Positions 48,488 through 64,000 of a stretch of 64,000 nucleotides of DNA are shown here, one piece after another; positions within the stretch are counted from its first letter, which is position 1; each line of letters starts with the position of its first letter. The stretch is from Turbatrix aceti (taxonomy: Eukaryota; Nematoda; Chromadorea; Rhabditida; Panagrolaimidae). The notes beneath the pieces were generated by a model. That model ran no database searches. It had not been told where the DNA came from and saw nothing but the letters and a program-made list of their open reading frames with translations. The DNA is taken from contig OZ017770.1 of assembly GCA_963969345.1 (NCBI GenBank), forward strand, positions 5,341,246-5,405,245, written 5' to 3'. Made by a program: the position numbers and the translations under genes.

Positions 48488-48529
48488 TGTCGCAGCGCCG
48501 ACCGGCTGCTGGACGGGAGATGGATGGGG

Positions 48530-48720
48530 TCGCGGCGCTGACGCTACCGGACCGAAGTTGGGGTGGTCGCGGTGCGAGGACGCTGCCGGACCGGTGATGA
48601 TGACGTCTCGGTGCGCTCGCGCTGCCGGACGGATGAGTGTAGTCGCGGCGCTTCACGCTACCGGACTGGAGATGATGACGTCGCGGCGCCTGACGCTACC
48701 GGACTGGAGATGATGTCGTA
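48530..48720. repeat. GC-rich imperfect tandem repeats inside the LTR
   Basis: Several imperfect units of about 36-40 bp sharing TCGCGGCGC, ACGCTACCGGAC and GGAGATGATG; the clearest pair is 48642-48680 and 48681-48715. The same array occurs in the right LTR at about 50619-50810. Confidence 0.75.
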
Positions 48721-48950
48721 GCGGGGGGCTCTGAGGCCTTGCCGTCAACGAGGATTTGGTGAACGTTGGGCTTCGCCGTACGAAGTCGGGCGAAGCAGAG
48801 AATAGCCAAACGCGAGTTACTCAACAACTTTATTGGTTTGCAACAGGTTCTCCCTAGTGCAACCGCATAGGGAAACCAACGAGGGAACAACCAAGGAGCC
48901 AACGAGGGGACGACCGAGTTACCCAACGAGGGGACCAAGAGAGAGAACCG

Positions 48951-48979
48951 GGGTCAGTCTTCGACTGACCCTTTATATA
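48951..48979 (-). promoter_or_regulatory. LTR core promoter: TATA box and perfect 9-bp dyad (left LTR)
   Basis: Minus-strand TATATAAAG (48979-48971) abuts a perfect inverted repeat GGGTCAGTC-TTC-GACTGACCC (48951-48971). The right LTR has the same pair at 51059-51067 and 51039-51059. The dyad lies between the TATA box and the expected start site. Confidence 0.6.
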
Positions 48980-49046
48980 GGCACAATCAAAAGGGGCGGG
49001 ACAATTCAAAAAGAGGACAGAATTATCTAGAACGAAGAGTCCGTAT

Positions 49047-50504
49047 TCAAATCGAGGGAGACGGCACCGCTGGCCGGCATTTCCAAGAGATTGGAGCAGA
49101 TGGTTCTCTGGGGGGCCATCGGGGAAGGTGTGAAGCGCAGCAAGATAAAGCTCGCGGTCTGTAGGACGCGACACTCCCGGCGGCGTAGGAGAGGGCCTCG
49201 ATGATGGGCGATGATCGGATGGAGGACAGTAAACGATCCAGAGGCCGGCGGCTACTGCTGACCGATCGATCGGCTGACCGAGGTGGAGGTAGGAACCTGA
49301 AATCCATTTTCTTCCCTACCGTTCCTGTTGGTAGTTTCGCAGGACCAATGCGGAATTCGGTGCGGTGTGGACCATGTGGAGCTTGTTTCAGGATGTGATG
49401 ACGCTGCATTTTTCCCAAGTGACAGCCGGGTGCGCGGTGAGTTGCTTTGGCAGTGCGTCTGCGTGACACGGGATGAAGTGCGCGTCGGTTGCATGCAGCG
49501 ACTCGTCGTGTGGCGGGGTTGCGAAGACGGCTGAGGTGGAGTCGTAGAGCACGTCGGGGCCTGAGGGAGCAGACTACCGCTTTTGACGCCTTTCGTAGAC
49601 ATGCTGAGTCTTGAGGTTGGCGGCCCGATCTACATTTCCGAAGGGAACCCTCCCGAGGGCGGTGGGAGCGCGGGTTGGTGGTGCCGGAGTTCTTTTGCCC
49701 GAAGACGGCCGGATCAGGCTTGCTCTCGGGTGCTGGCAACGCGGGTTGTTGGATTCCAGAAGGTGGTTCCGGAGGCACTTGCTTGACAGGCATCATTGGG
49801 GACGCTCCGTAGGATGTGTGCAGCGTCGGCCGGGGGCAAGGTAGAAAGCTTGCCGGATCTGTAATGATTTGTCCTACCTTGTCACCCTTTGATGGAGTTT
49901 CAAGCGATGCTAAAGAGTCCGACGCTGGTACTGTGGACAGGGTAGTCGTCTGATTGAGACAATGATTTTTCGGACGGATTGGTAGCTTGTCTTCGACCAC
50001 ATGAGAAGCTTCCAATTGTGGTAGGCTGCGATCGGCGCGTTGAGTAATATCCTGATCTGTGGATTTACTTTGAGAATTTTCCGTGCCTTGAAGTTGTTTT
50101 CCTTGACCGGCGGTATGCGACTGGTTCTGCGCTTTTCTGGATCTGTATCTGGCGAGAACGCAGCGTGCATGGATGTCGAAGGCTTCGTCCCTGACTGCCT
50201 TGAACTTGTCAATGAGTTCTGTGGTACCATTAGCACCGTGATTCTCCATCTCGAACTGAGCTCTGCGGGAGTCGGCTTGTTCTCCCGAGAGCCCGGCTAT
50301 TTGGGCCTGGTAACGCTTCGTTTCCTCAGAAAAGTCATCGCGTAGTTGGTAGAATATTGCTTCGGCTGCACGACTTACGCTTGTATGGTTAATGATGTCG
50401 TCGTTTGTCTCTGATCCCGCTTTAACGAGGTTGATGTAGTTCAAGAGATCGTCGATCAGCCTGTGGGCATCGGCTTTGGATGCTTCGAGTTTTGCGTTTG
50501 GCAT
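49047..50504 (-). CDS. Gag-like ORF of the LTR element
   Basis: Single uninterrupted ORF of 485 residues on the element's sense strand, starting 72 nt inside the right (5') LTR boundary. The N-terminal 130 residues are helical and charged (DAHRLIDDLLNYINLVKAG, AAEAIFYQLRDDF, ELIDKFKAVRDEAFDIHARC), like a capsid-type Gag. The remainder is Pro/Ser/Arg-rich without an obvious CCHC knuckle. No catalytic motifs. It terminates inside the 3' LTR. Composition changes after about residue 270 (very Arg-rich), where other frames are also open, so a past frameshift cannot be excluded. Confidence 0.6.
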   Translation of the reverse strand: MPNAKLEASKADAHRLIDDLLNYINLVKAGSETNDDIINHTSVSRAAEAIFYQLRDDFSEETKRYQAQIAGLSGEQADSRRAQFEMENHGANGTTELIDKFKAVRDEAFDIHARCVLARYRSRKAQNQSHTAGQGKQLQGTENSQSKSTDQDITQRADRSLPQLEASHVVEDKLPIRPKNHCLNQTTTLSTVPASDSLASLETPSKGDKVGQIITDPASFLPCPRPTLHTSYGASPMMPVKQVPPEPPSGIQQPALPAPESKPDPAVFGQKNSGTTNPRSHRPREGSLRKCRSGRQPQDSACLRKASKAVVCSLRPRRALRLHLSRLRNPATRRVAACNRRALHPVSRRRTAKATHRAPGCHLGKMQRHHILKQAPHGPHRTEFRIGPAKLPTGTVGKKMDFRFLPPPRSADRSVSSSRRPLDRLLSSIRSSPIIEALSYAAGSVASYRPRALSCCASHLPRWPPREPSAPISWKCRPAVPSPSI

Positions 50505-50576
50505 TTTGGTGCTGCCACGCGGGTCTTAGTTGATTGATAAACGGCACACGTTCGAACAGGCCGTTGCACCAGAAAA

Positions 50577-51261
50577 TGTCGCAGCGCCGACCGGCTGCTG
50601 GACGGGAGATGGATGGGGTCGCGGCGCTGACGCTACCGGACCGAAGTTGGGGTGGTCGCGGTGCGAGGACGCTGCCGGACCGGTGATGATGACGTCTCGG
50701 TACGCTCGCGCTGCCGGACGGATGAGTGTAGTCGCGGCGCTTCACGCTACCGGACTGGAGATGATGACGTCGCGGCGCCTGACGCTACCGGACTGGAGAT
50801 GATGTCGTAGCGGGGGCTCTGAGGCCTTGCCGTCAACGAGGATTTGGTGAACGTTGGGCTTCGCCGTACGAAGTCGGGCGAAGCAGAGAATAGCCAAACG
50901 CGAGTTACTCAACAACTTTATTGGTTTGCAACAGGTTCTCCCTAGTGCAACCGCATAGGGAAACCAACGAGGGAACAACCAAGGAGCCAACGAGGGGACG
51001 ACCGAGTTACCCAACGAGGGGACCAAGAGAGAGAACCGGGGTCAGTCTTCGACTGACCCTTTATATAGGCACAATCAAAAGGGGCGGGACAATTCAAAAA
51101 GAGGACAGAATTATCTAGAACGAAGAGTCCGTATTCAAATCGAGGGAGACGGCACCGCTGGCCGGCATTTCCAAGAGATTGGAGCAGATGGTTCTCTGGG
51201 GGGCCATCGGGGAAGGTGTGAAGCGCAGCAAGATAAAGCTCGCGGTCTGTAGGACGCGACA
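50577..51261 (-). repeat. LTR, right copy (5' LTR of the element)
   Basis: Matches the left LTR except for a G/A difference at 48610 versus 50702 (approximate) and one G fewer in the G-run near 50814. Confidence 0.9.
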
Positions 51262-52031: not shown

Positions 52032-52636
52032 TTAATACCCAATGCCGTTGAAATCGGGAGTGATTTCTGCGTCGCGCTTCAGCTTGTTATCGATATCGGC
52101 GGATCGTTTACCAAAGCCCATGCGGAATGCATTGGGATCCATGCGTTTGCCAAAGCCCATCCGGAAGACATTAGGGTCGATTTCATCGGAACTTCGCTTA
52201 CCAAACCCCATGCGAAAGACGTTAGGATCAATTTCGTCGGAGCTACGCTTGCCGAAACCCATGCGGAAAACATTGGGATCAATTTCGTCGGAGCTACGCT
52301 TGCCGAATCCCATGCGGAAAACATTTTGATCAATTCCGCTGGAGCTGCGCTTGCCAAAGCTCATTCGGAAAGCGTTGGGATCAATGTCTCCTCGCTTGCC
52401 TGTAAATTTGTAATTCAAATTTAATCTTATGTTATAGACATAAAAAAGTTTACCGAAACTCATACGGAAGGCATTTTGGTCAATTGCATCTGAGTCGCGT
52501 TTTTGGCCTGGTCGTTGTTCCTAAAACAAAATGGTATACGGTAAAATCGTTTTTATCGATAACTTACATCTGCGTAGAGTGCAGGAATTGCCAAGATGAC
52601 TACCGGGAGAAGTAGCATCAGCAGAGTGGTATGCAT
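52032..52636 (-). CDS. nlp-1: Neuropeptide precursor NLP-1 (MSFamide/buccalin-like), seven amidated peptides
   Basis: Exons 52636-52568, 52520-52454 and 52399-52032 join in phases 0 and 1 to 167 residues. Signal peptide MHTTLLMLLLPVVILAIPAL. After QKR come seven peptides ending in Gly before Lys-Arg: DSDAIDQNAFRMSFG, GDIDPNAFRMSFG, SSSGIDQNVFRMGFG, three identical SSDEIDPNVFRMGFG and MDPNAFRMGFG, then SADIDNKL-KR and a non-amidated DAEITPDFNGIGY tail. DPNAFRMSFG is the signature of nematode NLP-1, which in C. elegans is released from AWC olfactory neurons and acts through NPR-11. Five of the seven copies end in MGF rather than MSF. A CTTTCAG acceptor about 35 nt upstream of the ATG marks a trans-splice or 5' UTR acceptor. 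Confidence 0.93.
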
Positions 52637-52911: not shown

Positions 52912-54894
52912 TGCTTTTATATCTTTTGGGATAAAATGGGGCTCATGTAACGCGGGAAAAAAATTTTTTACTGTAATAAATGGAAGCCCTCGTACAGAAC
53001 AGACACGCGAAATGTAGGATCTATACGCTGTCTGAGTACAAAGTGCATGAAATTGTTTATCTAGGCGTGGCACAAATCCCGGGTTTTTTGCGGTCTTCAC
53101 TTGAAAGGTAAAATGTCATGTAAAGAGAAAAGCGAGATCAAAGGTGTTGCAAACGAGAAATGATAACACTTTCATCGTTCCCTGGGTAATGGAAGCTGAA
53201 ATCGACAAAGCACTCATTACCGGGGAGAGAAAAGAGGGGAAGTCATAGTCATACTAAAAGCAAGAAGGCAGAAAATACAATGTGAAAACCCGTCACAAGC
53301 CGATTAGCAGACGACCTTTGGTAAAACACGGAGCACTGTAAACTGATAATCGCTGGTTTTCACAAGACTCGTGAATTACATCATTTTTAATTCTTTAGGT
53401 CTTGGATTTCAATTTCATGATAAAAATGCGTGAAATGTTATGTTATGCAACTTCGAGACTTGAATATACGACAATGTAAGTAACGAGAAATGAGACAACG
53501 CACTAATTAATAAGTGATAATCTGTGCTCTATAGGCCGGATTTTGTGGGATTTCAGGAATACCGCGTGCTGGTCAGGCAAACATCGTATCGTAAACAATA
53601 ATTAGTGTACCTTTATGTTAACAAGAAACTGAAAATACAAAATCAGATTCTTGTTGAGAAATAAAAAAAATATTATGAAGGCGAAATTTGTTTGCCATAT
53701 TTGTTTAAGGTGCTCGACACAAGTTGAATGAATCACAGCTAATGCATCAGTGCCCTTTATTCAGTTTTTTTGTTCATAACGATGAACACGATCGAAGGTC
53801 ATAAAGCACCCAAAGAGGTTGCTATCTGACAAATAGAGTTATGCTTGCTCTAAAAATTTTTGAAAGCATAACACATTTTATACCGTAAAATCAGAAAAAA
53901 ACGGGTAGCTTGTTTTTCGGGAAAAAAATTGAATGGAATTTATTATATAACATCTGTGCATTGCTCCCTGGGGCGTAAGATTTAGAAAAACATCGCATTA
54001 TTCCATTATCATTTGACCTGAAATTTAGTGTTCACCATGTGCGCTTGGCGTTTAACCTTTTCAATGTATAATATAAAAAAATTACGAAGGTACATATTAG
54101 GGGAGTAGAAATGCCATACTTAATTGGTTGAGTTTTTTAGAGCTCAAGTGCAATAAACACACATTGTAGTAAATCACAAAACAACTTAAGCATGCTTTCA
54201 AGTGCATGTTACACAAAAGAATGTAACACAACCACCAAAAAAACAACGTGTTTGAATAATATGTTTTGAATAACGTGAATTTGCAAGCAATTTTTTACAA
54301 CACTTTTTTCGTTTGGCAATTGTCATTTTTGATTGTTGTTTAAAAACAAATATATGTTATTCTTGGAGACATAGAATTGTATGAATCAAAATGGCATGAA
54401 AGCGCTGTTGCGCATAAAAGGATTTCGAAGATTAAAGAGTTCTAATTTTAGAGATTTTAGGGATTCATTGTAGCCAAACATATTCGGCTTATATTTTTTA
54501 TAGAAATTGAAACGACAAATGTCAACTTCACAAAAAATTTCTTTTTTTTCTAGAAACGGAAATTGTATTACACAAAAAAATCCGCAAATTTTGAATCATA
54601 AAAATTTATTTTTCTTGTTTTCTAAAATTTTAAAAATGCGCATTCTGATTACAGGATGTTGTTCTTCAAAAAAATATTTCAAACATCAGATTTTTAATTA
54701 TGAAATGATGCTTCAAATACTATTTAGACATGTAAAAACATAATTTTAAACTAATTCATATTTTCTCATCTTTTGCTTGCGATATGCATCGGATGAGCAC
54801 ACCTATCACATAAACGCACACGGAAAAAAATTTGGATGCAGAAGGGTTATAAGTTTTCGATGTCTCGAATGCTACCGACAGGACGAATACGCCC
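52912..54894. repeat. Segmental repeat A, first copy (1983 bp)
   Basis: Matches 57017-58999 with constant offset 4105 and no indel. The one mismatch I saw is T at about 53293 versus G at about 57398. It is AT-rich and non-coding as far as I can see; ORFs such as 54507-54743 are low-complexity chance frames. Left of 52912 the sequence is unique (nlp-1 5' flank); right of 54894 it runs directly into segment B. Confidence 0.95.
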
Positions 54895-55055
54895 GATTCT
54901 GTCAGGGCAGTGCCCATGCTTGAAGCGCGCTCATGCCCGCAAAGCTCGGGTGCCAATTCAGCGCCATACACCACAACAAGACCCTTGCTGCTGCCGCCCG
55001 CCCATGCTGGGAGCCCACAAAATGGCTTGGCGACAGCCGTTGTTACTCCGGGCAT
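54895..55055 (-). pseudogene. 5' fragment of the putative 62.2-62.6 kb minus-strand gene
   Basis: Copy of the exon at 62578-62401, cut at 54895 where it joins segment A. The GTGAGT donor and second exon of the other copy are missing and the frame runs on into unrelated sequence. If the full copy is not a real gene, this is just repeated sequence. Confidence 0.3.
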
Positions 55056-55189
55056 TTCTGCCGACACAAGCGGTAGCGTAGCCGCTTGGAGTGTTGCCAC
55101 AGAATTGTCTTCCGGCGCTCTGAATCCCTGTTACTGTTCATCATCAATACCATTATTCACAGCTCACAACTCACAACAACAACAATACC

Positions 55190-55720
55190 ATGTTGAACGG
55201 CACAAATGCCGGCGGCACGGTGTATACTATTGAGGAACAAATGCGACACGTCGACAAAGTTATAAAGGTTTGTTTCTTCACCCGCTCTTGAATTAAGTGT
55301 GTACATTTTTTGTCAGCCCTTCTGTCCCATTTTTTTCACACTCGTTAGGCATTGTGTTTTAGGAATGCGAAAATTCTCGTAAAAATCTTGATCACATTGG
55401 CAGGCGTCTGGATGACTTGAATGATGTAAGTTCCGAGATTTGCTATGCACTGATTTTGCTGTTACCTGTTTTATTATTTGCAGGAAGTCAAGAGATACCG
55501 AGATTACTTGGGGAACGAGAAGTCGCATCGAGACCCCGCCGTGTACAAGACGGTGAACGCCGAGCAGCCCAGTCCCTACAATGAAAGAATCCTTGGCATC
55601 ATGTCTAACTTGACGTCGCAACTTACCCAAGAGTGGTCAGAGAAGCTGCGCAGCATTTATTACGTTATGAGTTCTCCACCGCCTTCAACACCCGGTTCCA
55701 AGCTCTCCGAGCGAAATTGA
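55190..55720 (+). CDS. Small coiled-coil protein of unknown function, copy 1
   Basis: Exons 55190-55267, 55363-55425 and 55484-55720, all phase 0, encode 125 residues. The N-terminal half is a charged helix (YTIEEQMRHVDKVIKECENS, RRLDDLNDEVKRYRDYLG) that would form a coiled coil; a second helix (ERILGIMSNLTSQLTQEWSE) follows, and the tail is Pro/Ser-rich (SSPPPSTPGSKLSERN). No signal peptide or TM, so cytoplasmic or nuclear. I do not recognise the family; size and helical pattern would suit a subunit of a small complex, which is inference. AATAAA at 55787-55792. Matches copy 2 at 62713-63243 throughout as far as I compared. Confidence 0.7.
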
Positions 55721-55945
55721 ATTCATCGACCCTCATTTTCTCTTCCGTGTGGTTAAACATTTTAATACAAAAACGGTATAAACAGAAATAAAATAATGTG
55801 ATTAAAAGTGTGTTTTTTTCTGCTGAGGGGATATATTACTCTTTAAAGTCGTCAGTACTGGAATGAGGAAAGAAGAGCCGTTGAGGGAAACAAGTGTGCA
55901 AAAGAAAAAGTAAGTGAATGAAAGCCGAAAAATTTTTGTTCAGTT

Positions 55946-57016
55946 CTAACCGTATGTGTTGACCACGGACATCAGAGGACGGAATTTAAGTGAGCAGTCA
56001 GCGCCGCACGAATAGAGCCGCTGCTCTGAGTCGACGCAAAGTTGTTGAACTCCCTGAATACCCACTTGTCGTAGACTGAAGCCGCCTTTGGCTGCATGCT
56101 CGCCCATAAAAGAGCTCACAGGGGCCAGATCGTTACCAAAGATCTATAATGAATTGCTTGGTTTTAGTTCCGGCTTTTAAGCTTCCTTCCTTATTACCTT
56201 GAGATCGCCGTCGCTAGAGCCAACAATTATGTAGTCGCCACCAGAATCGATGCATACGTCTTTGACAATGACAGTTGAATCGAAGGCTTTGACGGATGCT
56301 CTCAGTTGACGCTGCCTGATATCCCAAAGGCATACATCGCCGTGGCGACCACCGGACACAATGGTCTGAAAGCTCATTTATCAGTTTTTGTTAATTTTAC
56401 AAAAACAAAGCCGACTGACCTGATTGTTGGGGATGTAGGCAACGCACATGGCACCATCCGGATGACCCACAAATGAGTGAACGTTACACTTGGAAGCGGG
56501 CATCAAGGTGTCCCATAGCGAGACGTTGGTGTCACCTGTGCTGTGACCGGCAGTCACCAGCAGGGAACTTGTCTGGGCAAGGAACTTCACGTCGGACGCA
56601 ACTTTCGTATGACTTTTTTGGTTCTAAAAGAGTAAGCCCCGGGTAATCTTTGGCCAGCATGGAGTTAACTCCTTTATCGATAAACTCACAAAGAATGGCT
56701 TTCGCCTACTCTGCGTCGCTTGCCACATGCAAAGCAATCCGTCGCCATCAACAGCGGCAAATTTGTTGCCATTCAATGCAAACGCCAACTTGGTCACTTT
56801 GGCATACTGGCCAGCGCTTCGCGCGGTAAATAGCGGCTGCTCGTGACCCCATTCCCAGAGGAGTATAGAGCCATCGAAAGAGCCACTGACGTCTAAAAAG
56901 TCGACATGGATTTGCATTACGCTCTATTCAAAATTAAATAACCGAAGAAAAAGTGCGAATTAAAAACTCACAGTATGGTAGTGTTGGATGCGACTCGAGG
57001 CTTTTATATATCTTTT
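55946..57016 (-). pseudogene. rbc-1: Rabconnectin-3 alpha (DMXL/RBC-1) C-terminal WD40 fragment, 5'-truncated
   Basis: Exons 57016(cut)-56972, 56892-56690, 56623-56420, 56365-56198 and 56143-55946 join in phase and encode the last WD40 repeats of the DMXL/rabconnectin-3 alpha family: LESHPTLPYYVSGSFDGSI, FAAVDGDGLLCMWQAT, LLVTAGHSTGDTNVSLWD, TIVSGGRHGDVCLWDIRQRQ and a C-terminus GADCSLKFRPL. The protein regulates V-ATPase assembly and vesicle acidification. The most upstream exon is broken at 57016, where segment A' begins, so this copy has no 5' end here and is a gene fragment or an assembly duplicate; the other copy (63469 onward) continues past the window. Confidence 0.85.
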
Positions 57017-58999
57017 TGCTTTTATATCTTTTGGGATAAAATGGGGCTCATGTAACGCGGGAAAAAAATTTTTTACTGTAATAAATGGAAGCCCTCGTAC
57101 AGAACAGACACGCGAAATGTAGGATCTATACGCTGTCTGAGTACAAAGTGCATGAAATTGTTTATCTAGGCGTGGCACAAATCCCGGGTTTTTTGCGGTC
57201 TTCACTTGAAAGGTAAAATGTCATGTAAAGAGAAAAGCGAGATCAAAGGTGTTGCAAACGAGAAATGATAACACTTTCATCGTTCCCTGGGTAATGGAAG
57301 CTGAAATCGACAAAGCACTCATTACCGGGGAGAGAAAAGAGGGGAAGTCATAGTCATACTAAAAGCAAGAAGGCAGAAAATACAATGTGAAAACCCGGCA
57401 CAAGCCGATTAGCAGACGACCTTTGGTAAAACACGGAGCACTGTAAACTGATAATCGCTGGTTTTCACAAGACTCGTGAATTACATCATTTTTAATTCTT
57501 TAGGTCTTGGATTTCAATTTCATGATAAAAATGCGTGAAATGTTATGTTATGCAACTTCGAGACTTGAATATACGACAATGTAAGTAACGAGAAATGAGA
57601 CAACGCACTAATTAATAAGTGATAATCTGTGCTCTATAGGCCGGATTTTGTGGGATTTCAGGAATACCGCGTGCTGGTCAGGCAAACATCGTATCGTAAA
57701 CAATAATTAGTGTACCTTTATGTTAACAAGAAACTGAAAATACAAAATCAGATTCTTGTTGAGAAATAAAAAAAATATTATGAAGGCGAAATTTGTTTGC
57801 CATATTTGTTTAAGGTGCTCGACACAAGTTGAATGAATCACAGCTAATGCATCAGTGCCCTTTATTCAGTTTTTTTGTTCATAACGATGAACACGATCGA
57901 AGGTCATAAAGCACCCAAAGAGGTTGCTATCTGACAAATAGAGTTATGCTTGCTCTAAAAATTTTTGAAAGCATAACACATTTTATACCGTAAAATCAGA
58001 AAAAAACGGGTAGCTTGTTTTTCGGGAAAAAAATTGAATGGAATTTATTATATAACATCTGTGCATTGCTCCCTGGGGCGTAAGATTTAGAAAAACATCG
58101 CATTATTCCATTATCATTTGACCTGAAATTTAGTGTTCACCATGTGCGCTTGGCGTTTAACCTTTTCAATGTATAATATAAAAAAATTACGAAGGTACAT
58201 ATTAGGGGAGTAGAAATGCCATACTTAATTGGTTGAGTTTTTTAGAGCTCAAGTGCAATAAACACACATTGTAGTAAATCACAAAACAACTTAAGCATGC
58301 TTTCAAGTGCATGTTACACAAAAGAATGTAACACAACCACCAAAAAAACAACGTGTTTGAATAATATGTTTTGAATAACGTGAATTTGCAAGCAATTTTT
58401 TACAACACTTTTTTCGTTTGGCAATTGTCATTTTTGATTGTTGTTTAAAAACAAATATATGTTATTCTTGGAGACATAGAATTGTATGAATCAAAATGGC
58501 ATGAAAGCGCTGTTGCGCATAAAAGGATTTCGAAGATTAAAGAGTTCTAATTTTAGAGATTTTAGGGATTCATTGTAGCCAAACATATTCGGCTTATATT
58601 TTTTATAGAAATTGAAACGACAAATGTCAACTTCACAAAAAATTTCTTTTTTTTCTAGAAACGGAAATTGTATTACACAAAAAAATCCGCAAATTTTGAA
58701 TCATAAAAATTTATTTTTCTTGTTTTCTAAAATTTTAAAAATGCGCATTCTGATTACAGGATGTTGTTCTTCAAAAAAATATTTCAAACATCAGATTTTT
58801 AATTATGAAATGATGCTTCAAATACTATTTAGACATGTAAAAACATAATTTTAAACTAATTCATATTTTCTCATCTTTTGCTTGCGATATGCATCGGATG
58901 AGCACACCTATCACATAAACGCACACGGAAAAAAATTTGGATGCAGAAGGGTTATAAGTTTTCGATGTCTCGAATGCTACCGACAGGACGAATACGCCC
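57017..58999. repeat. Segmental repeat A', second copy (1983 bp)
   Basis: Copy of 52912-54894. Preceded by the cut rbc-1 exon and followed by unique segment C. A short T-rich similarity (CTTTTATAT-like) lies at the 57016/57017 junction. Confidence 0.95.
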
Positions 59000-61900
59000 T
59001 TTTCCAAATAAAAATTAATACGGCTAGAGTGTACCTTGTCATCGGGCATATAAAAAATTTGATGCATGGGCATAAAAATACAGGTTAAAAGTAAAAAGCA
59101 ACGGCGGCCCTCAGTTTGTTTAGTGTCCCCATAAAGTCGCTCTACGGAAACCTAAAAAAATGGCACTGTTTTTTTCCACCAACCAACCGTAACCCTACTA
59201 TCTATTTGTTCTGCAATAATATCCGTTGTTCCATTTTTTTATTTTTTAAAATAATGCCAACAGACCAACAATTTTTGTGACAGGAAAGTCAAAAAAATTA
59301 TTTCATTTACATCTCAACATGCAAGGAATAAACAAAAATCGCGGCAGCAGCAATAACGCGTTTTTTGGTATGTAGCATCGTTTTTGAAAATTGTGTTGTC
59401 AAGTGGCAATGAAAAGAACAAGTACAAGCAAACAAGGGCTTTTCCACTTTTGAGCATAATGACAACCTTTTTTTATGGCTTGTGAAAGTTGAAAATACGT
59501 ATGTGTGTTTGAGATCTCCTTCTGACCAACGACAAACGCATTTGGATTATTTACTGAGGAGGTACAACGTTTTCAAAATAAGCGTCTTGATTTTGAACGT
59601 TGCCGGTGGGGGTGTATTTAACGACCACGTAAAGCATGGCATAGGGTCTGCTCGGTTGACAAGGACCCCGTTTATGGCCATCGTGTTGACGAATTGCCAC
59701 TCCAACTCCCATTCGGGTCGTCGATTTCCATATTAACTGCGTAAAGTGTCCGACGACAAAATAATTTCGAATAAATCTAAAAATTCAATTTTGACCGTCA
59801 ATTCAAGAACACACAACGTCATAACCTCTGATAATTGTAGTTTTTTCCTTCACCGTAAAAAGTTCTCATCATGGCATCTGCCATTGAATTGGGATCGGTA
59901 AAGTACCGTGCGCTGAACAGAAATAGGTTTTCTCCTAGTCCTTGTTTGTGTTCATGAATCAAGCAGCTCTTGGCATTTGCTAGGATGTTGGCCCATGACT
60001 GCGCAGCGGCCTCGAGTCGAGTGTCATAAGATAAGGGTTTAGCATTGTGCTTTAGTCGGAAGCGGTTGTGGAGTTCAACTAGCTAAAAACTCATAAACAA
60101 GAATTAGATGATTAATTCTTTCCAAAGTAGACTTACTGTGTGTCTGAAAGTTGCGACATCGAACGAAAAGGGAGGAATCTTTTGTTCCAGACTTAATTTC
60201 AAAAGAATCGGCAGAGCATCGGCCAGCTGAAAGTGACACACAGAATTAACAGTGAAGTCTACAATTTGTCGCAACTTTTTCGATACGGTTTGTAGACAAC
60301 GAATCTAAGGCCCCAGAAGCATGAGAAACAAAACGACTTGTGGTATGTGATTTTGGATTTGTGGTTGTGGTCATGGTTGTGCTCTCAGAGATCACGGAGC
60401 GTGTGAACGGCGTCGGTGGTCTTGCGGTTGTCGTAACATGGTTTTCTCTCACGTCACCTGTTTTCAGAACTCTGTAGTCCAGCCTGCAATCATCAATCAT
60501 GTTTTCTGCTGCGAAAAAAGTCTATACGAACCGGATGAAACGATTGTTAGTCACCGAAGCCAAACTAGCTGTCGCCTTGGTGAATTTGACTGGCAATGAT
60601 TGCCATTCAGGACTTGTCAAAAGTCGACTTCCATAGCGGACTCTGACATACAGAAACTTACTGTTCGTCTGAAAATTTATTTCTGTCAGATATAAATTTA
60701 ATACCGCGCGTGCGTATGTGTACATCAGAGGGGAAATTGGCGACAAGACACCGATCAGTCGTTGAATGATGTAGACAACTGGTTGGGTATAAGGCTTTTG
60801 GCGCCGATTCGGCGCCTTTCTTTCCTCGGACGTTAAATGAACAGTGACATTGATAATCAGAAAAAGGTGACCTGCTCTCCTTGTTACAGAGACAAAAACT
60901 AAATCAAAACAGATCTTGTACATCAATGACCGGGTGAAAGGTGATTACCTGAAGAGATACGGTGTGTGCGTCTCCGAAGCCACTTCAGCCAGCGTTAGCG
61001 CTTCATATCTCGTCACAACGACGTCGTAAGAGCTGCTCTGTAATCCACGTAAATACAAAAACAGAAGCGGTAGTAAAACAAAACTCACAGCACAAGATAC
61101 AACCAAAGAACATAAAAACACCGCTATTAAAGTGGTTTTCAATCTGCGTGGAGAAATCATCTGTTATACCAACTTACCAACTTCTTTTACTCTCGCTGTC
61201 AAAAAGAGGTTTCTTACTTTATTAGGGTTTGGGTTTCTGAGGGGTTCCCGGGAGTACCGCCTCCTTAAACCCGATATTATCATTGTGCATAAAAATGAGA
61301 TGATTTATGTTCTGTCAAATGCGATACCTGTCCATTTATATCCGTACCAACATAATAAATGATTACAACAATTTAACAGCTGCTTTGAAAGTTGCACGCA
61401 ATAGTCTTCCTATTACTGTTATGAACATGTCACCTGCCAGAATATGTTTTAGTCTTTATGGTTATGACTCTTTGATCTATATGACGGGAACCATAACATG
61501 ATCCATACATATTTTACAAAAGACTTCATAAAACCGGTTCAAATCAGAAACAAATTACACAAACCCAAGAAGCGATTAACAAACGAATACGCATTTTGAT
61601 GAGTACCAAATGCCCTTGGAGAAGCAGTTCGCGTTGGTTGTCACAATCAAACGCTGTTTTAAATTCTATGCACGCATAGAAAAAAATTTATGCATTTTTT
61701 GGTTTTAATTTCCGTAATTTTTTGAAAAATGAATTTAATAAGCAAAATTGCTCAGCTCACTTTCTTTCGACAGAAACGTCGAGATATTCAAGCAATGCAC
61801 TGCAAATAATAGCTTTTCAATTAAAACAATCCTCTTGATGTATGGCGCTGGTCCGACCCAGTGAGGGTTCAAAGAGAACTTTGCTTCCCTCTACTTGGTT

Positions 61901-62417
61901 CCGTTTCTTCCAAACAAAGCCAGGACCCATAGAATAAGAATAAGATGCAAGCAAATGTTTTTTTCGTTGTCCGGTCCGAAAATTTTTTTAGCGTTGTTGT
62001 TATAATCAATGTTTGTTCTAGGAGGTACGTTCGGAGCACGATTCATAAACAGCCAGGAAATATGAGCCGTTGCATTCCGGGAATCGCATGCATAAGTCAA
62101 TTTTTAGGTGGATGATGAAACGTATAATGCATGAGTTGTTTCAAAAATCAGTAGTAGTGTGGCACTGTTAATTGCTTCCTCTCGAAGCCAAGATGGGTTG
62201 CATAAAGAAGATAAGAGCATCCGCTTTTGTTTCTTCGTATTTGACACTTTCTTCGTTTTTTTCTGCCAGTAAGGTTCTAACTTATTAATAAACTATCATT
62301 AAAAGTGCACTTCAGAAAACTTGTACGTGTTAAAGTGCAGTACGCAATTATGACATGAAAATAGCAGAATAGCAGGGTTATTTTACCCACAGTTACTCAC
62401 CTGGTAACTGATCAGGA
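59000..62417. other. Segment C: 3418-bp block present only once
   Basis: Unique sequence between A' and B'. In the first A-B arrangement A joins B directly with no trace of C. C contains the entire CAP-domain gene, and probably the second exon of a short minus-strand gene that begins in B'. 59000-59550 and 61161-62167 are otherwise AT-rich with no recognised gene. I found no target-site duplication or terminal repeats at the C borders, so it does not look like a transposon. Confidence 0.85.
59551..61160 (-). CDS. CAP/SCP-TAPS domain protein with N-terminal membrane anchor
   Basis: Six exons: 61160-60949, 60879-60532, 60483-60276, 60226-60137, 60082-59826, 59776-59551; phases join to 446 residues. 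A single strong hydrophobic segment near the N-terminus ([20 protein letters not shown], then LLFLYL), preceded by basic residues, suggests a type II anchor. A beta-rich region of about 150 residues follows, then a Thr/Ser/Pro linker, then a CAP domain (about 285-430): [58 protein letters not shown] and [12 protein letters not shown]. The CAP His/Glu/His set is present (HNRFR, GENLF, GHFTQ). Nematode SCP/TAPS proteins are usually secreted (VAP, ASP, VAL); a membrane anchor plus long N-terminal region is unusual. The donors ending exon 3 (GTTGCG) and exon 5 (GTTATG) are non-consensus but forced by frame. The join of the first three exons to the CAP exons is the least certain part. Confidence 0.75.
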
Positions 62418-62578
62418 GATTCTGTCAGGGCAGTGCCCATGCTTGAAGCGCGCTCATGCCCGCAAAGCTCGGGTGCCAATTCAGCGCCATACACCACAAC
62501 AAGACCCTTGCTGCTGCCGCCCGCCCATGCTGGGAGCCCACAAAATGGCTTGGCGACAGCCGTTGTTACTCCGGGCAT
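62168..62578 (-). CDS. Putative short two-exon gene spanning the C/B' border
   Basis: Exon 62578-62401 ends in a perfect donor (CCAG/GTGAGT) and joins in phase 1 to 62262-62168 (TGGCAG acceptor), giving about 90 residues ending in ALIFFMQPILASRGSN. The first exon frame stays open upstream of the chosen Met, so the start is uncertain. No family recognised. The first exon is unusually GC-rich and lies divergently upstream of the small coiled-coil gene, so it could instead be that gene's promoter with a chance ORF. Confidence 0.3.
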
Positions 62579-62712
62579 TTCTGCCGACACAAGCGGTAGC
62601 GTAGCCGCTTGGAGTGTTGCCACAGAATTGTCTTCCGGCGCTCTGAATCCCTGTTACTGTTCATCATCAATACCATTATTCACAGCTCACAACTCACAAC
62701 AACAACAATACC

Positions 62713-63243
62713 ATGTTGAACGGCACAAATGCCGGCGGCACGGTGTATACTATTGAGGAACAAATGCGACACGTCGACAAAGTTATAAAGGTTTGTTTCT
62801 TCACCCGCTCTTGAATTAAGTGTGTACATTTTTTGTCAGCCCTTCTGTCCCATTTTTTTCACACTCGTTAGGCATTGTGTTTTAGGAATGCGAAAATTCT
62901 CGTAAAAATCTTGATCACATTGGCAGGCGTCTGGATGACTTGAATGATGTAAGTTCCGAGATTTGCTATGCACTGATTTTGCTGTTACCTGTTTTATTAT
63001 TTGCAGGAAGTCAAGAGATACCGAGATTACTTGGGGAACGAGAAGTCGCATCGAGACCCCGCCGTGTACAAGACGGTGAACGCCGAGCAGCCCAGTCCCT
63101 ACAATGAAAGAATCCTTGGCATCATGTCTAACTTGACGTCGCAACTTACCCAAGAGTGGTCAGAGAAGCTGCGCAGCATTTATTACGTTATGAGTTCTCC
63201 ACCGCCTTCAACACCCGGTTCCAAGCTCTCCGAGCGAAATTGA
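62713..63243 (+). CDS. Small coiled-coil protein of unknown function, copy 2
   Basis: Exons 62713-62790, 62886-62948 and 63007-63243; same 125-residue product as the copy at 55190-55720. AATAAA at 63310-63315. Here the upstream sequence beyond 62417 is segment C, not A, so the two copies would have different distal promoters. Confidence 0.7.
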
Positions 63244-63468
63244 ATTCATCGACCCTCATTTTCTCTTCCGTGTGGTTAAACATTTTAATACAAAAACGGT
63301 ATAAACAGAAATAAAATAATGTGATTAAAAGTGTGTTTTTTTCTGCTGAGGGGATATATTACTCTTTAAAGTCGTCAGTACTGGAATGAGGAAAGAAGAG
63401 CCGTTGAGGGAAACAAGTGTGCAAAAGAAAAAGTAAGTGAATGAAAGCCGAAAAATTTTTGTTCAGTT

Positions 63469-64000
63469 CTAACCGTATGTGTTGACCACGGACATCAGAG
63501 GACGGAATTTAAGTGAGCAGTCAGCGCCGCACGAATAGAGCCGCTGCTCTGAGTCGACGCAAAGTTGTTGAACTCCCTGAATACCCACTTGTCGTAGACT
63601 GAAGCCGCCTTTGGCTGCATGCTCGCCCATAAAAGAGCTCACAGGGGCCAGATCGTTACCAAAGATCTATAATGAATTGCTTGGTTTTAGTTCCGGCTTT
63701 TAAGCTTCCTTCCTTATTACCTTGAGATCGCCGTCGCTAGAGCCAACAATTATGTAGTCGCCACCAGAATCGATGCATACGTCTTTGACAATGACAGTTG
63801 AATCGAAGGCTTTGACGGATGCTCTCAGTTGACGCTGCCTGATATCCCAAAGGCATACATCGCCGTGGCGACCACCGGACACAATGGTCTGAAAGCTCAT
63901 TTATCAGTTTTTGTTAATTTTACAAAAACAAAGCCGACTGACCTGATTGTTGGGGATGTAGGCAACGCACATGGCACCATCCGGATGACCCACAAATGAG
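63469..64000 (-). CDS. rbc-1: Rabconnectin-3 alpha (DMXL/RBC-1), C-terminal WD40 exons, continues past the window
   Basis: Exons 63666-63469, 63888-63721 and the 3' part of the exon ending at 63943, same as the fragment at 55946-57016. The reading frame is intact to the window edge. This copy is presumably the 3' end of the complete rbc-1 gene, because C and its flanks look undisturbed here; that is inference from the layout. Confidence 0.8.

Follow-up and report, generated by a model that had tools for sequence, protein, structure and literature searches.

A probable young duplication in Turbatrix aceti with a block missing from one copy and a 15-bp filler at the join

How does a piece of DNA come to stand twice on one contig, almost without change, while several kilobases are missing from the middle of one copy only? 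This question was raised by a stretch of the Turbatrix aceti genome, 64,000 nucleotides in length (OZ017770.1:5341246-5405245; the assembly has 59.9 Mb in 28 contigs), which is called the window here. We extended the window with 20 kb upstream and 30 kb downstream (114 kb in total) and compared it with itself. The overall order was left flank, A, B, 15 bp, A', C, B', right flank. We consider it quite likely, as far as assembled sequence can tell, that this order reflects a real and recent local duplication, whatever the mechanism. The segments are as follows, in window positions.

52912-54894, + strand: A, first copy, 1983 bp; no gene recognised
54894/54895: junction J1, probably new, A to B; blunt, 0 bp microhomology
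54895-57001, + strand: B, first copy, 2107 bp; holds a complete small gene (+ strand) and a 3' fragment of rbc-1 (- strand)
57002-57016, + strand: filler of 15 bp at junction J2, probably new; resembles the first bases of A'
57017-58999, + strand: A', second copy of A, from the self-comparison
59000-62417, + strand: C, 3418 bp, missing between A and B of the first copy; holds a CAP-domain gene (- strand)
62418-64524, + strand: B', second copy of B, leading into the remainder of rbc-1; its last 524 bp lie past the window edge

The initial annotation had described A as recurring without indels at offset 4105 with one mismatch, and B as recurring at offset 7523 up to the window edge. Both descriptions agreed with the self-comparison. 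Between A and A' there were 0 indels and 1 mismatch (T at 53293, G at 57398). B and B' were 100% identical over 2107 bp; 1583 bp of this match lie inside the window and it runs on for the 524 bp beyond. It was also correct that A adjoins B in the first copy and that a block of about 3.4 kb parts A' from B'. In total the copies differed at 1 in 4090 aligned bp, and the many mismatches for which a check had been proposed were not found between them. Identity at a fixed offset over kilobases rules out chance.

Further, we counted matches in the whole assembly, with simple repeats skipped and with the counts for repeats being lower bounds. All of A was matched twice and so were the first 506 bp of B. 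One match each was obtained for C, which is single copy, for the left flank (1612 bp) and for the right flank (3976 bp). We found no third copy or separate haplotig with the stretches searched (A, C, 506 bp of B and the flanks), and purging before release is possible. There were 0 N bases in the window and its 50 kb of flank.

The junction between B and A' was the most informative. It reads ...CGAGGC, then TTTTATATATCTTTT, then TGCTTTTATATCTTTTGGG..., and the filler TTTTATATATCTTTT is absent from both adjoining segments. The end of B and the start of A' have no overlap through which an assembler could join them. In the best local alignment of the filler with the first bases of A', 14 bases were aligned; 13 of them match, there is one gap of 1 bp and the score is 12. 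This score was reached for 4 of 6314 15-mers from the neighbourhood outside A, for 45 of 5000 shuffled versions of the filler (0.9%) and for 0 of 121 AT-rich 15-mers. When A itself was included in the control, 57 of 8394 local 15-mers reached it, 50 of which start in the first copy of A or at most 30 bp from it. The GC directly before the filler is the same as the GC before the matching stretch in A', and this GC of 2 bp, present both where B ends and in the template of the filler, is the only microhomology at J2. These comparisons are suggestive of a filler copied from the start of A. Since the join holds bases that come from neither adjoining segment, it suggests that molecules with such a junction existed.

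Four junctions had been named in the initial annotation as places to map reads. Two of them, 54894/54895 and the one that we place at 57001-57017, are likely to be new, while 58999/59000 and 62417/62418 appear to be original neighbourhoods. The order that contains C would be the ancestral one, because C carries a gene and its copy runs on into rbc-1.

We favour a reading which the initial annotation left out, namely a single event with two template switches, which yields this sequence with no need for C to be lost separately. That a real young duplication arose in this way is, in our judgement, somewhat better than an even chance. The starting order would have been left flank, A, C, B and the rest of rbc-1. 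A break or a stalled fork at the boundary of A and C may have been repaired with two template switches. In the first, the end of A would have been joined forward to the start of B, so that C was skipped and 2107 bp of B were copied. In the second, the new end would have returned to where A begins; that sequence would have templated the 15-bp filler left at the join, and copying would then have continued through A, C and B. The outcome would be a net gain of 4105 bp: the small gene would be complete twice, rbc-1 would have gained a dead 3' stub and the CAP gene would still be single. Candidate enzyme classes are polymerase-theta end joining and microhomology-mediated break-induced replication (MMBIR). 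The sampled worms are possibly heterozygous for the duplication.

An identical sequence would result from two real events, that is, a tandem duplication of the 7508-bp unit A-C-B with filler at the junction, after which the first copy lost the 3418-bp C. The same contig has other tandem duplications of comparable length (10.9 and 11.4 kb), and a genome with a spare CAP gene may lose it without harm or even with advantage. This course needs an independent kilobase deletion within the period in which one substitution arose. We estimated how probable that is from C. elegans rates, which the available text of PMC13322394 gives as approximately 0.25 single-nucleotide variants and 0.03 structural variants per genome per generation, with 28 of 40 of the latter being deletions. 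At this substitution rate, 1 substitution in 2 x 4090 bp corresponds to approximately 49,000 generations (95% Poisson interval 1,200-272,000). Over that time, 0.08 separate deletions are expected in one 7508-bp copy, and 0.43 at the upper bound, where deletions of all recorded sizes are counted, the rates are borrowed from C. elegans and selection is ignored. Since so few deletions are expected, one complex event is favoured over a tandem duplication with subsequent loss of C, which we regard as possible but doubtful.

As a background sample we used 200 kb of the same contig (OZ017770.1:4841246-5041245), approximately 0.5 Mb upstream of the window. It contained 16 self-matching rows of at least 300 bp. 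Five rows were direct with at least 99% identity, one for a pair of 393 bp, one for an 11.4-kb pair arranged head to tail and three for a single 10.9-kb unit. One inverted pair had 99.9% identity and another 88.9%, and the remaining 9 rows were direct at 66-80%, several of them from one locus. At other settings (at least 200 bp, at least 90%) there were 9 rows, adding an inverted 816-bp pair at 98.9%. In the window with its flanks, all three rows of 300 bp or more were above 99.7%, namely A, B and a pair of long terminal repeats (LTR). The two large direct duplications of the sample are the following, in positions of the sample.

46740-69441: tandem duplication, head-to-tail, 11,354 bp, 99.87%; 1 bp shared at the join, no filler
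12830-39536: tandem duplication, complex, 10,859 bp; second copy without its last 2 kb

A third partial copy of the 10,859-bp unit carries a 41-bp deletion replaced by AAAA. The joins of the large direct pairs, read by eye, share 1, 1 and 3 bp. The short microhomology and the small deletion-insertion look like repair scars, and the duplication in the window is one of a class. One could go further and propose a burst of nascent direct duplications by template-switch end joining, with the window case and the 10.9- and 11.4-kb duplications as sister products; we think such a burst improbable. It would imply an unusually high duplication rate, for instance if the strain that was sequenced had impaired homologous repair. 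No direct pair of the sample had an identity between 80 and 99%, which would fit either a quick disappearance of young duplications or an artefact across the assembly. The inverted pairs of the sample lie at 131275-140455 (3804 bp, 99.9%) and at 90828-92738 (816 bp, 98.9%).

Besides a true duplication, the initial annotation had offered two haplotypes set end to end by the assembler, one of them without C; a variant of this is duplicate paths of the assembly graph placed one after the other. Local duplications with nearly identical copies are common in the part of the assembly that we sampled, and the first 1000 bases of OZ017770.1 read N, either as a gap, which may mean scaffolding, or as a masked stretch. 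There is no gap between the copies here, whereas gaps between the members of a pair on the same scaffold are a listed hallmark of false duplications in the available text of PMC9516828. Joined ends without a common overlap, a 15-bp filler foreign to both adjoining segments and the failure to find a haplotig with the stretches searched also speak against it. Moreover, a difference of one base in 4090 together with a 3.4-kb structural difference makes an unlikely pair of haplotypes. Of the two offers, the sequence favours the real duplication, and we consider a false one unlikely.

Amplification can produce local template-switch joins, so a chimera from whole-genome amplification of a few worms could have been fixed by chance in the assembly; such chimeras are expected only seldom at any one locus and should lose out to the other reads in the consensus, and the copies differ by one base, which together make this origin very unlikely.

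Several points weigh against a single real event. The C. elegans rates may not hold in this species, and a later loss of C could be more probable than our figure if selection acted or the repeats were unstable. The presumed ancestral order is read from this one assembly and the duplication from the assembled bases. J1 is blunt and shows no microhomology. The shuffle control of the filler is modest, and the alignment score was chosen by the analyst. Finally, direct pairs that are either at least 99% or at most 80% identical in the 200 kb would also fit false duplication throughout the assembly. With these points in view, we still infer that the duplication is real, and a single event with two template switches is the origin that we prefer.

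B and C encode the following. Window positions are given unless the contig is named.

55190-55267, 55363-55425 and 55484-55720, + strand: gene for a 125-aa protein, first copy; three exons, read by eye
62713-63243: second copy of the same gene, in B'
55946-57001, - strand: orphan 3' fragment of rbc-1, its last WD40 exons; WD40 domain matches
OZ017770.1:5409209-5409772 and 5410470-5411021, - strand: Rav1p_C domain in two exons, right of B', continuing rbc-1
within approximately 59551-61163, - strand: exons of the CAP-domain gene in C (PF00188), read by eye

The sequence of the 125-aa protein points to a conserved nematode protein. There were 9 homologues at E values of at most 1e-3 with 62-71% identity; 7 of 7 named sources were nematodes and 2 were unnamed. 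The best matches in the two protein searches came from panagrolaimid and other nematodes, with at most 71% identity. No Pfam family was found above the cut-off for this protein. That the protein might be Mediator subunit 30 was considered and dropped, as Pfam and PDB gave no support.

In the first copy, the exon of rbc-1 is cut at 57001 and the stub has no 5' part (splice sites read by eye). Thus the break inside an rbc-1 exon, as initially annotated, stands, while its placement exactly at the start of A' does not, for B ends at 57001 and not at 57016. The name rbc-1 (rabconnectin) is supported by the Rav1p_C domain on the same strand, approximately 3.4 kb to the right of the end of B'.

In C, PF00188 was detected with 50.8 bits at 59819-60082 and with 20.3 bits at 59551-59784, the latter just below the cut-off of 21.1. 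We also considered C as a transposon insertion. No target-site duplication and no shared bases were found at the edges between A' and C and between C and B'. As C is single copy, has no target-site duplication or repeated element at its ends, and carries a CAP domain, this candidate was ruled out.

If real, the locus would be a snapshot of the birth of a nematode gene copy, with a complete extra gene, a truncated stub, a skipped neighbour and a readable repair scar. For annotation, neither the extra copy of the gene for the 125-aa protein nor the rbc-1 stub ought to be listed as a functional paralogue unless reads support it.

Other features were seen in the surroundings. An LTR-type element lies at 48488-51261, with 686-bp terminal repeats (48488-49173 and 50577-51261) that are 99.7% identical. 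Its ends read TGTCGC...GCGACA, with an apparent 4-bp target duplication, GTGC, and it holds a 492-codon open frame on the minus strand with no Pfam match. Its terminal repeat had 34 matches in the assembly, mostly partial. A minus-strand frame at 52032-52520 encodes repeated ...FRMGFGKR units and includes a tandem repeat at 52144-52385; it is presumably neuropeptide-precursor-like, a class for which the family search gave no support. Past the window edge, at window coordinates 85758-87115, there is a 258-bp inverted pair, 100% identical and approximately 1.4 kb across, possibly a terminal-inverted-repeat transposon. As to the assembly itself, 16 of the 28 contigs were measured; five have 11.4-12.7 Mb and the 16 sum to 59.6 of 59.9 Mb. 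Panagrellus redivivus and Propanagrolaimus sp. JU765 are described with 2n=10, a number that agrees with five chromosomes. TTAGGC repeats were observed at the end of one contig (C4).

The kind of mutation that we propose is already well known. False heterotype duplications, which the available text of PMC9516828 describes by gaps, half depth and haplotype-specific k-mers, likewise present near-identical copies adjacent on one scaffold, but the copies described here have no gap between them. A parallel is found in C. elegans brc-1/brd-1 lines. According to the available text of PMC7368036, of the 33 insertions of 5 nt or more at deletions, 24 had a match in nearby sequence; the tandem duplications had junctions similar to those of the deletions, with microhomology or insertions, in connection with polymerase-theta repair. 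The duplications that accumulated in these mutation-accumulation lines resemble ours in segments of at least 1 kb and in microhomology and occasional insertions at the junctions. They arose in repair mutants, and that text reports none in 240 wild-type generations, whereas here there is no known repair mutant. Compared with the duplications in that text, only the present locus has one copy without an internal block.

The MMBIR model was derived in part from discontinuous duplications mixed with deletions, as set out in the available text of PMC2621351. The loci treated there are similar to ours in the mixing of duplication with deletion and in several jumps within one locus. They are human disease loci with 2-5 bp of microhomology and nearby low-copy repeats, whereas here one join is blunt, one carries a filler and the self-comparison showed no repeat at the breakpoints. 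A complex duplication of rcan-1 in a C. elegans laboratory line (available text of PMC7058356) is likewise a spontaneous local rearrangement that left complete and truncated gene copies. It involved inversions and at least 5 new fusions, whereas the T. aceti copies all have the same orientation and two joins are likely to be new.

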